A stretch of 64,000 nucleotides of DNA, taken from Anaerolineales bacterium (lineage in GTDB: Bacteria; Chloroflexota; Anaerolineae; Anaerolineales; Villigracilaceae). Below the pieces are notes generated by a model. The model saw only the letters and a list, made by a program, of their open reading frames with translations. It was not told where the DNA came from and did not search any database. The stretch is taken from assembly GCA_024710905.1 (NCBI GenBank), contig JANJTV010000076.1, positions 1 through 64,000 of the forward strand, given 5' to 3'. Positions within the stretch are counted from its first letter, which is position 1, and the number at the start of each line of letters is the position of its first letter. Made by a program: the position numbers and the translations under genes. Shown piece after piece: positions 6,764 to 22,202 of the stretch.

Positions 6764-7999
6764 TTAATTGGAAGCAAGCAATTCCCGCAACAGGGCTTGC
6801 TCCCCGGCCCCGGTACTGACCAACCCATCCAGGCGGGCGGCACGCACCTGCCAGAGAACCCTACGATACAGCGGACCAGGCGGCACCCCCAGGGCCTTAA
6901 GCGTCTCGCCGGTTGTTTCAGCTTGCACATGCCGCCAGCCTGTTGCGTAATTGTGCAATTCTGCCTGTTCGCTATGCAAATAGGCAGCATAGATCGCTGT
7001 CATGGGCAATCCATCCAGCCGGGCAACCCATGCAGAAGGCGGCTGCCCGCGCAAGCCTGTCAAGTCACGAGTCAGGGCGCTGGCAGCACGGATGACTTTT
7101 AGCATCGGCGCGGCAAAAGCAAGGCTCGCATTGGCAGCATCCAGCGCGGCGGTGGTTAAAGACATCAGCCACAGGGCATAGCCCAAAACCCGCTTTAACG
7201 GTTGGTGGCCGAGGGTGGGCCTGAGTCCCCAGCTGGGCGGCGGCGGCTGGTGGGCCAAATCCAGCAGGCGGGTTAGAGGCGGTTCCACGGGCAGGACATC
7301 CGGCAGGAATGACTGCAAACCCAAACCATACAGGCGCGACAACATGGCCGGGGCATGCGGCTCGTCCAGGATCATATCCAGTTCATGGCGCAGGCGTTCC
7401 GGCGAGAGCAGGCGCAGGCCGGGTCGGGCCGCCTCCAGCCAGCCCCGCGTGGAGGGCTCCATCGCAAACCCATAGCGCTGCTCATAGCGAATGGCACGCA
7501 GGATGCGGGTGGGATCATCAATAAACGAATTTTTATGCAGGGCACGAACAACGCCTTTTTGAAGGTCTTGCAGGCCATTGTGTTCATCCACCAGTTCCCC
7601 ATCCACCAGGCGGATGGCGAGGGTGTTGATGCTAAAGTCACGGCGCGCCAGGTCGTCGGCAAGCTTCGCGGGCTGCACAACCGGCAGGCTGGCCGGGGCC
7701 GGGTAATGCTCCCGGCGGGCAGTTATCAGGTCCATGAAAACGCCAGGTCGGGGCTGCCAGACCGCAGTCTGGAAAGCCGGATGTACGATGATTTCCCCGC
7801 CATGCTGTGCAGCCAGCCGCCGGGCAACATCCACCGCATTGCTTTCAAAAACCAGGTCCAGATCCAGCGAAGGACGACCCAGCAGCAGATCGCGCACCAC
7901 GCCGCCCACCAGGGTTGCCGGGGACAGCTTGGCGGCCAACCCCAGCCAGTAAAAATGCTCTTGCGGCAGGAAATCCCGCAGTCTCTCAGACAGGTTCAT
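6764..7999 (-). CDS. CCA tRNA nucleotidyltransferase / poly(A) polymerase family
   Basis: A 411-residue class II tRNA nucleotidyltransferase. It has the GGVVRDLLLGR motif, the metal-binding pair in LDLDLVF, the RRDFSINTLA motif and the nucleotide-selecting DDPTRILRAIRYEQRYGF motif. These enzymes add or repair the 3' CCA of tRNAs; close relatives add A only or make poly(A). No HD phosphohydrolase motif is visible in the C-terminal helical part. The ATG follows TACAAT by 6 bases with no Shine-Dalgarno sequence, so it is probably leaderless. Confidence 0.88.
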   Translation of the reverse strand: MNLSERLRDFLPQEHFYWLGLAAKLSPATLVGGVVRDLLLGRPSLDLDLVFESNAVDVARRLAAQHGGEIIVHPAFQTAVWQPRPGVFMDLITARREHYPAPASLPVVQPAKLADDLARRDFSINTLAIRLVDGELVDEHNGLQDLQKGVVRALHKNSFIDDPTRILRAIRYEQRYGFAMEPSTRGWLEAARPGLRLLSPERLRHELDMILDEPHAPAMLSRLYGLGLQSFLPDVLPVEPPLTRLLDLAHQPPPPSWGLRPTLGHQPLKRVLGYALWLMSLTTAALDAANASLAFAAPMLKVIRAASALTRDLTGLRGQPPSAWVARLDGLPMTAIYAAYLHSEQAELHNYATGWRHVQAETTGETLKALGVPPGPLYRRVLWQVRAARLDGLVSTGAGEQALLRELLASN

Positions 8000-19790: not shown

Positions 19791-20525
19791 TTAGCGCAGG
19801 TTGGAGCGCAGGCCTTCGAGTTTGCCGGAGACAGAACCATCCAGCACCTTATCACCCACGCGCACAACCAAGCCACCCAGGATGGACGGATCCACACGGA
19901 AGGTCACCGCAGCGGCGCCTGCCTTGGAAAGCACATCCTTTTTGACAGTTTCCTGCTCTTCCTTTGTGAGCGGCAGGGCGCTGGTTATTTCAGCAGACTG
20001 GCCGGTAACGCCAGCAGCATCCAGAACAACCAGTTTGCCAGATTTGACACCAGAGAAGAATTCGTCGATAAGGGCACGCTGGCGTTTTTCATCCAGGGCT
20101 TCGCCAACCAGCTTCTGGGTGGCAGAAATTGCCAGGGCGGCCACCTGGCCGCGCAAGTCACCGAGGATGCGGTTGCGTTCTTCTTCCACTTCGGCCAGTT
20201 TCTTTTCAGCGGCCTTGCCAGCCTCTGCATCAGCAGCAGCCTTCACATCACGCGCAGCAGCTTCAGCGCGCTCAGTGGCCTCGCGAACGATCGTGCCAGC
20301 CTTGGCCTGAGCCTCAGCAATGATCTTTTCAGCTTCTTTTTCAGCGTTGGCGCGGGCTTCAGCAGCCTCGCGGGCGTCTTCGAGACCCTGTGCAATTGCC
20401 TTCTTGCGGTTCTCAAGCATGTTCAGGATGGGGGTGTACATCCAGTTCGCGAGAACTGTGAAAACGACAATAAACGCAATGACAAATACCACCAAAGAGC
20501 CGAGATTAATACCAAGTGCTTCCAT
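19791..20525 (-). CDS. atpF: ATP synthase b-delta fusion subunit
   Basis: A 244-residue stator protein. Residues 8-30 are the membrane anchor. Residues 35-140 form the long Ala/Glu/Arg-rich helix of subunit b (NRKKAIAQGLEDAREAAEAR). The last 80 residues match the C-terminal part of subunit delta (KEEQETVKKDVLSK, GGLVVRVGDKVLDGSV, LEGLRSNL). The N-terminal six-helix domain of a normal delta, which binds the top of alpha subunits, is absent. No separate atpH and no F1 genes follow; the operon ends here. Confidence 0.88.
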   Translation of the reverse strand: MEALGINLGSLVVFVIAFIVVFTVLANWMYTPILNMLENRKKAIAQGLEDAREAAEARANAEKEAEKIIAEAQAKAGTIVREATERAEAAARDVKAAADAEAGKAAEKKLAEVEEERNRILGDLRGQVAALAISATQKLVGEALDEKRQRALIDEFFSGVKSGKLVVLDAAGVTGQSAEITSALPLTKEEQETVKKDVLSKAGAAAVTFRVDPSILGGLVVRVGDKVLDGSVSGKLEGLRSNLR

Positions 20526-20541: not shown

Positions 20542-20781
20542 TTACACGAAGAGAATAATCAGAGCGACGGCCAGGGCGTAAATGGCGACAGCTTCTGCGA
20601 AAGCGATACCCAAAATCATGTTGGTCTGGATCGTGCCAGTATAGTCAGGGTTACGGCTCATCGCTTGCACAGCACCACCCACCACGATACCAATACCAGC
20701 GCCAGCGCCAGCCACACCAATCACGGCCAAACCAGCACCGATGTAGCGCATTGCCTGTAAGAAGACCACGGGATCATTCAT
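20542..20781 (-). CDS. atpE: ATP synthase subunit c
   Basis: A 79-residue two-helix proteolipid of the rotor ring. The first helix has the glycine-rich pattern AGLAVIGVAGAGAGIGIVVGG, the polar loop has SRNPD, and the second helix carries the ion-binding Glu in GIAFAEAVAIYALAV. The residue after that Glu is Ala, not the Ser usual in sodium-binding rings, and the helix-1 Gln of such rings is not seen, so proton coupling is more likely. It lies between atpB and the b-delta gene. Confidence 0.95.
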   Translation of the reverse strand: MNDPVVFLQAMRYIGAGLAVIGVAGAGAGIGIVVGGAVQAMSRNPDYTGTIQTNMILGIAFAEAVAIYALAVALIILFV

Positions 20782-20823: not shown

Positions 20824-21918
20824 TTAGTGAGCTTCAGCGTGTTCGTCGCCGTGATGGCTGACGGTTGCCTGACTCATGAACGTCTGGGCCAGGGTGGCAA
20901 ACACATATGCCTGGATCAGGCCCACAAAGGTTTCAAGGCCATACAAGAAGCCTGGAACAAGGGCGGGAACCAGCACGCCCAGAATACCCAGCAGGAGGGT
21001 ACCCGCAAAGATGGTACCAAAAAGACGCAAGCCAAACGAGAGCACTTTGGCAATTTCACTGATCAACTCAAGCACACCAACGATGGTATCCATCAGGCCA
21101 AAGAACGGCTTCTTGATGATGGTGGTGAAATTGAAGAACTTCACGAGGTAGGACGGGCCAAGCGCCATGAAACCAAATACCTGCACCATGACCATGGTAA
21201 TGATCGCCAGCGAGAACGTGAAGTTCAGGTCAGTCGCCGCGCCACGGAAACTAGGCGCCAGGAAACAATCATCTACACAGGCATGACCTCGCTTGTGCTT
21301 GACTTCTTCCCCGTGGTCACCTTCTTCGGCATGCGCAGCGCGCTCGCTGGACTTCACCACGTGTGAGCCGTCCAAGGTCATGACCGGCAGGCCACCAATT
21401 TCGAAGAGCGTCTGCGTATCATAGCCAGTGTAGCTGCCATAGCCTTCTTCAAAATAGCCGATCGTTTCATGGAAAGGCAGCAATTTAACCAGATTCGCCG
21501 TCAGCACAACCAGGAAGATGGTCATCACAAACGGGAAAATGCGGCGGGCATGTTTGCCAGCAGCGCTTTGCGTACTGTTCCAGAAAAATTCCACCAGGAA
21601 CTCAACAAAATTGTAGAAACCTGACGGAACCTGCTGGCCGCTGCGAATAAAGGGCTGGACAACAAAAAACACGAGCGCAAACAGCAGGATGATGGCCAGA
21701 CTCAACGAGGCCATTGTGTTCGTAAAGTAGGTTTCGAACGGGGTGCCGTAGGCTATCTTCGCCAGGCTCGGGATGAACGGCTCGGCAGGCAGGATTACGG
21801 TCGGGCTGATCGGGGTGAAAATCCCCTTCACGGCGAACGCAAGCCAGCCGCCCAGGATCATCAGACCGAGCAACACCCAGCGTTTGAACCCAAAACGTCG
21901 TTCAGTTTTGGCGGTCAT
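20824..21918 (-). CDS. atpB: ATP synthase subunit a, with His-rich insertion
   Basis: A 364-residue proton-channel subunit, clearly longer than the usual 230-280. The essential Arg is in VLSFGLRLFGTIF (Arg298) and the last helix contains GLIQAYVFATLAQTF. Extra length lies at residues about 150-228, between membrane helices: GYGSYTGYD, then a highly charged His/Glu/Lys segment with two Cys (CVDDC). The extreme C terminus is also His-rich (SHHGDEHAEAH). The role of these parts is unknown. Confidence 0.93.
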   Translation of the reverse strand: MTAKTERRFGFKRWVLLGLMILGGWLAFAVKGIFTPISPTVILPAEPFIPSLAKIAYGTPFETYFTNTMASLSLAIILLFALVFFVVQPFIRSGQQVPSGFYNFVEFLVEFFWNSTQSAAGKHARRIFPFVMTIFLVVLTANLVKLLPFHETIGYFEEGYGSYTGYDTQTLFEIGGLPVMTLDGSHVVKSSERAAHAEEGDHGEEVKHKRGHACVDDCFLAPSFRGAATDLNFTFSLAIITMVMVQVFGFMALGPSYLVKFFNFTTIIKKPFFGLMDTIVGVLELISEIAKVLSFGLRLFGTIFAGTLLLGILGVLVPALVPGFLYGLETFVGLIQAYVFATLAQTFMSQATVSHHGDEHAEAH

Positions 21919-21929
21919 AAGTTAGTTTA

Positions 21930-22202
21930 TTACTCTCCTTGATTTTTAGTAGAGGGCGGCGACATCTTAGAAATCGCGCTCATGGCCACCCGGTACATCA
22001 CAAAGATGCTAATCGGGGCGCTGACAATCATCAACAAAATCGTAAATAAAGGCTTGACATTCAACATCCCATCCAGCCAAAGCCCAAGCGCCAGCGCACC
22101 AATCACTATACCCAGAATTATGAACCCTCCAAGGCTGACAACCCCGGCCAGGGTCATCGTAAAGGAGGCTTTTCGTTTTTCAATGTCAGCCTGGTCAGTC
22201 AT
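21930..22202 (-). CDS. AtpZ/AtpI-like small membrane protein
   Basis: A 90-residue protein with two hydrophobic helices (residues about 17-45 and 50-75) and the GLWLDG pattern of AtpZ/AtpI proteins, which aid c-ring assembly or Mg2+ supply and sit first in many atp operons. It leads the operon here, 11 bases before atpB. Its ATG lies 8 bases after an extended -10 with no Shine-Dalgarno site, so the atp mRNA is probably leaderless. Confidence 0.8.
   Translation of the reverse strand: MTDQADIEKRKASFTMTLAGVVSLGGFIILGIVIGALALGLWLDGMLNVKPLFTILLMIVSAPISIFVMYRVAMSAISKMSPPSTKNQGE

Follow-up and report, generated by a model that had tools for sequence, protein, structure and literature searches.

In the textbook F-type ATP synthase a single peripheral stalk is paired with a single a subunit, so that the H+/ATP ratio is fixed by the size of the c-ring alone. 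The limit to one stalk has been traced to the N-terminal domain of the delta subunit, which sits on the pseudo-three-fold axis of F1, and in Bacillus PS3 deletion of this domain combined with fusion of the delta C-terminal domain (delta-C) to alpha yielded complexes with as many as three stalks and three a subunits and a measured H+/ATP ratio of 5.8 (Ueno et al. 2025, PMC12229609). The authors chose the delta-C-alpha fusion for fear that an unfused delta lacking its N-domain would bind poorly, named Acidaminococcus fermentans as carrying a natural delta-alpha fusion without the N-domain, and asked whether multi-stalk enzymes exist in nature (PMC12229609). Loss of delta is itself known in N-ATPases, where b is also longer (PMC5706428), and in both Dictyoglomi and N-ATPases (PMC4154653). 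Among deposited structures, the 9itj series (entry title Chloroflexus aurantiacus ATP synthase) comprises 18 alpha chains in six entries, 12 delta in six, 36 a in 18 and 72 b in 18, so that each alpha3 is accompanied by two delta chains, two a chains and four b chains. Chain W of 9itk (state 2) is modelled over residues 85-154 only and chain S of the same entry has 69 residues; therefore only delta-C appears to be modelled in this state. A two-stalk Chloroflexus enzyme was reportedly described in 2025.

The window examined in the present study is a stretch of 64,000 nucleotides from an Anaerolineales bacterium of the family Villigracilaceae (assembly GCA_024710905.1, contig JANJTV010000076.1, positions 1 to 64,000). 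Its minus strand encodes, at 19791..20525, a 244-residue protein that the initial annotation had read as a b-type helix and coiled coil joined to the C-terminal portion of delta only. Domain searches bear this out, with ATP-synt_B (PF00430) matching residues 11-140 (E 6.8e-24, 84.9 bits versus a Pfam cut-off of 28) and OSCP (PF00213) matching residues 176-243 through positions 103-172 only of its 172-position profile (E 2.4e-18, 67.2 bits versus a cut-off of 22.3). The F-type b model TIGR01144 scores 102 bits (cut-off 65.5) and TIGR01145 51 bits, below its cut-off of 57.5, while positions 1-102 of PF00213, corresponding to the six-helix N-terminal domain of delta, have no match in the protein. 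An AlphaFold2 model built from 30 sequences (mean pLDDT 79.3, pTM 0.32) predicts a continuous helix over residues 8-143, a short helix at 146-161 and a delta-C fold at 177-243. Combining these results, we delimit a b part with membrane helix and coiled coil (residues 1-160, 20046..20525, minus strand; PF00430 and the AlphaFold2 helices), a linker (residues 161-175, 20001..20045, minus strand; pLDDT <50 at residues 161-171) and the delta C-terminal domain (residues 176-244, 19794..20000, minus strand), which matches the fold of Chloroflexus aurantiacus delta (9itj_S) with Z 10.1 and an rmsd of 1.9 over 68 aligned residues. Alignment A2, made with 30 out of 39 fused sequences, also delimits the linker, and places it at the site where the mycobacterial b-delta protein carries the entire delta N-domain. 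All that is left of delta here is the C-terminal anchor domain, carried at the end of b, and there is no hidden in-frame upstream part, because the reading frame spans only 255 codons from stop to stop.

The fusion gene belongs to a minus-strand F0 cluster with the order I-a-c-b(-delta). It begins with a gene for an AtpI-like small membrane protein (21930..22202; PF09527, E 3.9e-06), continues with a 364-residue a subunit (20824..21918; PF00119, E 1.7e-34) and the c subunit of the rotor ring (20542..20781; PF00137, E 6.2e-17), and has intergenic gaps of 11-64 bases. From reading their sequences we take the genes upstream of the cluster to be nuo-like and the gene after the fusion to be murE-like. 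The best solved relative of the a subunit is 9itj_T from Chloroflexus aurantiacus (E 5.6e-40; next 1.5e-15), and that of the b part of the fusion is the Chloroflexus aurantiacus b subunit of the same series. The loop between the LLP and DLN motifs of the a subunit spans 80 residues in the window, 59-61 in three Chloroflexia (a gene of L116 at 6970-7908) and a median of 12 in 13 other phylum members. We considered this long loop as a marker of a double stalk and rejected it, as it is equally long in full-delta relatives within the class (median 47 in 19 FULL, 49 in 87 FUSED); since the loop does not track the state of delta, the a subunit offers no independent support for a multi-stalk enzyme.

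The genome assembly (3,426,958 bases in 154 contigs) was searched for the missing domain. PF00213 and PF00430 each gave two matches above cut-off, at the window gene and at 136.3-137.1 kb of contig C62, and one further PF00430 match scored a sub-cut-off 12.6 bits. The second location was rejected as a second b-delta gene because this contig of 156,870 bases is an inverted duplicate, exactly self-reverse-complementary over the 20 kb at either end and the central 20 kb, and the copy is a mirror image; the window genes are therefore probably present twice in the assembly. The contamination listed for the genome, 6.84%, may be inflated by the duplication of C62. Profile searches of the genome found no full or separate atpH and no second atpF, the two discoveries that the initial annotation had named as counting against it. 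We also used a profile restricted to the delta N-domain (A1, 23 rows), which had no match in this genome at E<=1. Across a search of 31 genomes, A1 recovered all six in-class full-delta genomes lying outside the profile (E 4.8e-25 to 2.3e-21), gave weak matches confined to profile positions 53-99 in three Chloroflexia genomes, and had no match below E 0.047 in the other 22 genomes, among them the present one. By homology search, then, the six-helix domain is absent from the genome, as had been claimed for the protein itself.

The F1 genes lie outside the window on contig C64 (locus L004), in the order alpha-gamma-beta-epsilon, and no atpH was found beside atpA-G-D-C there. The search proposed in the initial annotation, for a separate N-domain protein near atpA-atpG-atpD, thus gave none. 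A gene that we take to be MreB-like directly follows atpC (L004 12698-13705). A survey of 16 F1 loci, made with greedy gene picking that missed some atp genes in L232, L233, L238, L243 and L244, revealed no conserved uncharacterised small gene or small helical protein beside F1; the most recurrent neighbours were presumably MreB-like (8/16 loci) and Rex-like regulator genes (7/16 loci), named from reading of the sequences. These results bear on the idea, raised in the initial annotation, that another protein supplies the domain. For a homologous protein the idea found no support in the genome. An unrelated protein could occupy the on-axis site and restore a single-stalk cap while being invisible to sequence searches, but we regard this as improbable given the absence of a conserved candidate beside F1 in the 16 loci and the lack of room among the F0 genes. 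The companion proposal, that the top of the stator is built differently, is the outcome we favour, no homologous N-domain protein having been found. The fusion is best explained as the stator arm of an F-type ATP synthase, the sole one that was detected in this genome.

The fusion was matched at E<=1e-6 in 102 of 121 sampled genomes of the order, and in 95 of these, counted by eye from the table, the alignment runs from residue 3 or earlier to residue 238 or beyond in a single frame. Six of the 95 (G168, G176, G200, G343, G536, G594) align at only 24-33% identity and their proteins may be N-type; alignments in the other seven genomes are partial (G512, G528, G546, G558, G562, G582, G585). Named carriers among the best 80 of 405 confirmed stretches include Longilinea arvoryzae KOME-1 (L220), Bellilinea sp. 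KatS3mg047 and Candidatus Desulfolinea nitratireducens. Judged from these matches, the fusion is standard in this Anaerolineae order. The short protein might be suspected of reflecting a frameshift, a misassembly or a piece of a longer fusion, coming as it does from an inverted-duplicate assembly product in a genome with listed contamination, but the recurrence of the same end-to-end protein in 95 of the 102 matching genomes, including strain KOME-1, makes such an artefact barely credible. Among 120 genomes sampled from the class, PF00213 scored at least 94.6 bits in 54 (full delta), at most 75.7 bits in 60 (reduced) and had no match in six, with the counts made by eye and the 60 reduced including N-type b genes that were not separated genome by genome. 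Long OSCP matches in fused proteins of some families (profile 12-172 or 35-172; G037, G262, G372, G493, G144, G475) were dismissed as probably coiled coil aligned to the N-domain, because their scores do not exceed those of delta-C by itself and A1 finds no match in G372. Three genomes of the same family without a delta match (G337, G387, G332; loci L246, L247, L248) encode a catalytic subunit A of the A/V type, scoring 897-912 bits with TIGR01043 (short of its cut-off of 972), and seem to have swapped the F-type enzyme for an A/V-type one; a fourth, G269, had neither a delta match nor A/V-type subunit A.

Relatives within the Chloroflexota carry a graded set of forms, comprising full delta, delta of 118-123 residues (L070, L071, L072, L074, L075), free mini-delta of 81-84 residues and the fusion (L076-L081 and L084-L086), with a delta of 167 residues in L073; the numbered loci come from selected genomes of the class. 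The mini-deltas directly follow b (L067 6986-7240; L068 6977-7231; L069 2187-2432) and are, to our knowledge, among the smallest known delta subunits. In L067 and L068 they lie between b and alpha in I-a-c-b-delta-alpha-gamma-beta-epsilon clusters, and from these three loci it follows that delta-C without the N-domain exists in otherwise ordinary gene clusters. As the b and mini-delta genes overlap by four bases in L067 and L068, a small indel could fuse them. In Chloroflexia (L116, L117, L118; 157 residues in L116 and L118) the first half of the delta N-domain is absent and A1 matches only at positions 53-99. A quick IQ-TREE analysis of 72 alpha sequences of at least 430 residues, with 10 of the 30 full-delta loci of the phylum (every third), requires five state changes for full versus reduced delta and two for the FUSED group, although its starred branches alone force no more than one full/reduced change. 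The window alpha groups with FUSED rows of its own family and order.

The same tree bears on whether the enzyme could be an N-ATPase, a Na+-pumping enzyme type spread by lateral transfer, with a long b and no delta. The fusion aligns end to end with TIGR03321, the alternate F1F0 subunit B (residues 13-242 on 10-244 of 246), but at 70.8-71.4 bits falls far below the cut-off of 224.7. The window alpha lies among Anaerolineae alphas, from which the alphas of N-type-ordered operons (L082, L083) separate at a support of 100, and the arrangement I-a-c-b plus alpha-gamma-beta-epsilon differs from the N-ATPase order beta-epsilon-I-R-a-c-b-alpha-gamma. On alpha tree, gene order and TIGR03321 cut-off we rejected N-ATPase membership, which we consider very unlikely. 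The N-ATPase-ordered operons L082 and L083 (genomes G486 and G411) have b genes scoring 109.4 and 130.4 bits to TIGR03321, against the same cut-off, and these are the only OSCP-like matches in their genomes, possibly representing a divergent N-type as sole enzyme.

In known enzymes the N-terminal helix of alpha binds delta. This helix is kept in the window's alpha (MSDLIKQITSDFQKQIETY...), which is 79% identical to the alpha of G072, and the inspected FUSED, MINI and SHORT rows likewise have it. We lean towards a stator in which delta has been cut down to delta-C on b, delta-C grips the alpha N-terminal helix, and F1 carries more than one stalk, each with its own a subunit. The stator arm would hold F1 through delta-C and the retained alpha helix, loss of the on-axis domain would allow several peripheral stalks with one a subunit apiece, and the additional stalks and a subunits would raise the H+/ATP ratio. 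What our searches address is the permissive condition, that is, loss of the on-axis domain. More than one stalk per F1 is probable because the enzyme lacks the domain that holds F1 to a single stalk, and from the PS3 engineering, the 9itj chain counts and the best solved relatives of a and b it is to be expected that delta-C holds alpha directly and that more than one stalk is possible and likely. Certain features argue against this reading. Delta-C is fused to b here and to alpha in the engineered design, and the alpha helix would also be expected to persist with a single stalk. Furthermore, b-delta presumably pairs with itself, the searches having revealed no second b; such a homodimer would bring two delta-C to every stalk, an awkward match to one delta-C per alpha in an enzyme with two or three stalks.

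The homodimer suits at least as neatly the main rival, a single stalk with one a subunit whose two delta-C heads bind two alpha N-helices, the second head replacing the N-domain. As the genome has a single b-type gene scoring above cut-off, both b chains would bear delta-C, and the low-pLDDT linker (161-171) could allow each head to reach an alpha of its own. Against it, the free mini-deltas of relatives show that delta-C need not pair with b, and the deposited enzyme from the same phylum is two-stalked. We consider the two-headed single stalk doubtful and prefer several stalks per F1. Extending this preferred reading, many Anaerolineae may possess natural enzymes with two or three b-delta(C) stalks and a subunits around one F1, with an approximately doubled or tripled H+/ATP ratio as an adaptation to low pmf, the design having arisen on more than one occasion in Chloroflexota as the N-domain was eroded step by step, a scenario for which we see an even chance.

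Our literature search found no paper in which the main ATP synthase of Anaerolineae is described as carrying a short b-delta fusion, or in which its graded forms are reported. One Chloroflexi genome, RBG-9, was noted in a previous report as lacking the F1 delta subunit (PMC3971608). Beyond what the initial annotation described, the trait is order-wide and graded in relatives, and its mechanistic meaning, that the N-domain limits stalk number, is published. A whole order of common environmental bacteria is missing exactly the stalk-limiting domain in its main ATP synthase, with intermediate steps in its relatives, and named organisms, including strain Longilinea arvoryzae KOME-1, make the question of natural multi-stalk enzymes directly answerable.

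Several known systems share part of this architecture. Subunit E of V/A-type enzymes likewise places a small alpha-beta head after a long helix, and yeast V1 subunit E (5bw9_I) aligns with fusion residues 41-244 (Z 8.2, a value common for long helices; rmsd 4.8, 195 aligned), but at 12% identity to the fusion. Subunit E lacks a membrane helix and has G as its partner. The N-ATPase resembles the present enzyme in lacking a delta gene and in having a long b (~246 residues) with a delta/E-like C-terminal part, and differs in lineage (alpha tree), in gene order and in usually being an extra enzyme. The mycobacterial b-delta (7jg5, 445 residues) also combines b and delta in one chain with delta-C at the terminus, but has the full N-domain and a separate b, whereas the fusion in the window is ~200 residues shorter, bears delta-C only, and no second b was found in the genome. 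VIA-align superposes model residues 115-244 on residues 109-444 of the Mycobacterium smegmatis b-delta (125 aligned, rmsd 2.9 Å), which agrees with the statement in the initial annotation that mycobacterial fusions retain full delta, and the two proteins share both ends, the N-domain being excised from the window fusion. The engineered Bacillus PS3 F1Fo (PDB 9jc1) has likewise lost the N-domain and kept delta-C, but is man-made and carries delta-C on alpha, whereas that of the window is on b (PMC12229609). The Chloroflexus aurantiacus enzyme (9itj series) is from the same phylum, provides the best solved matches to a and b and has an N-terminally reduced delta of 157 residues; unlike the window, its delta is separate and keeps approximately half of the N-domain, matching the second half only of the A1 profile, and its operon is intact. 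Its two stalks are evident from chain counts, whereas those of the window enzyme are predicted.
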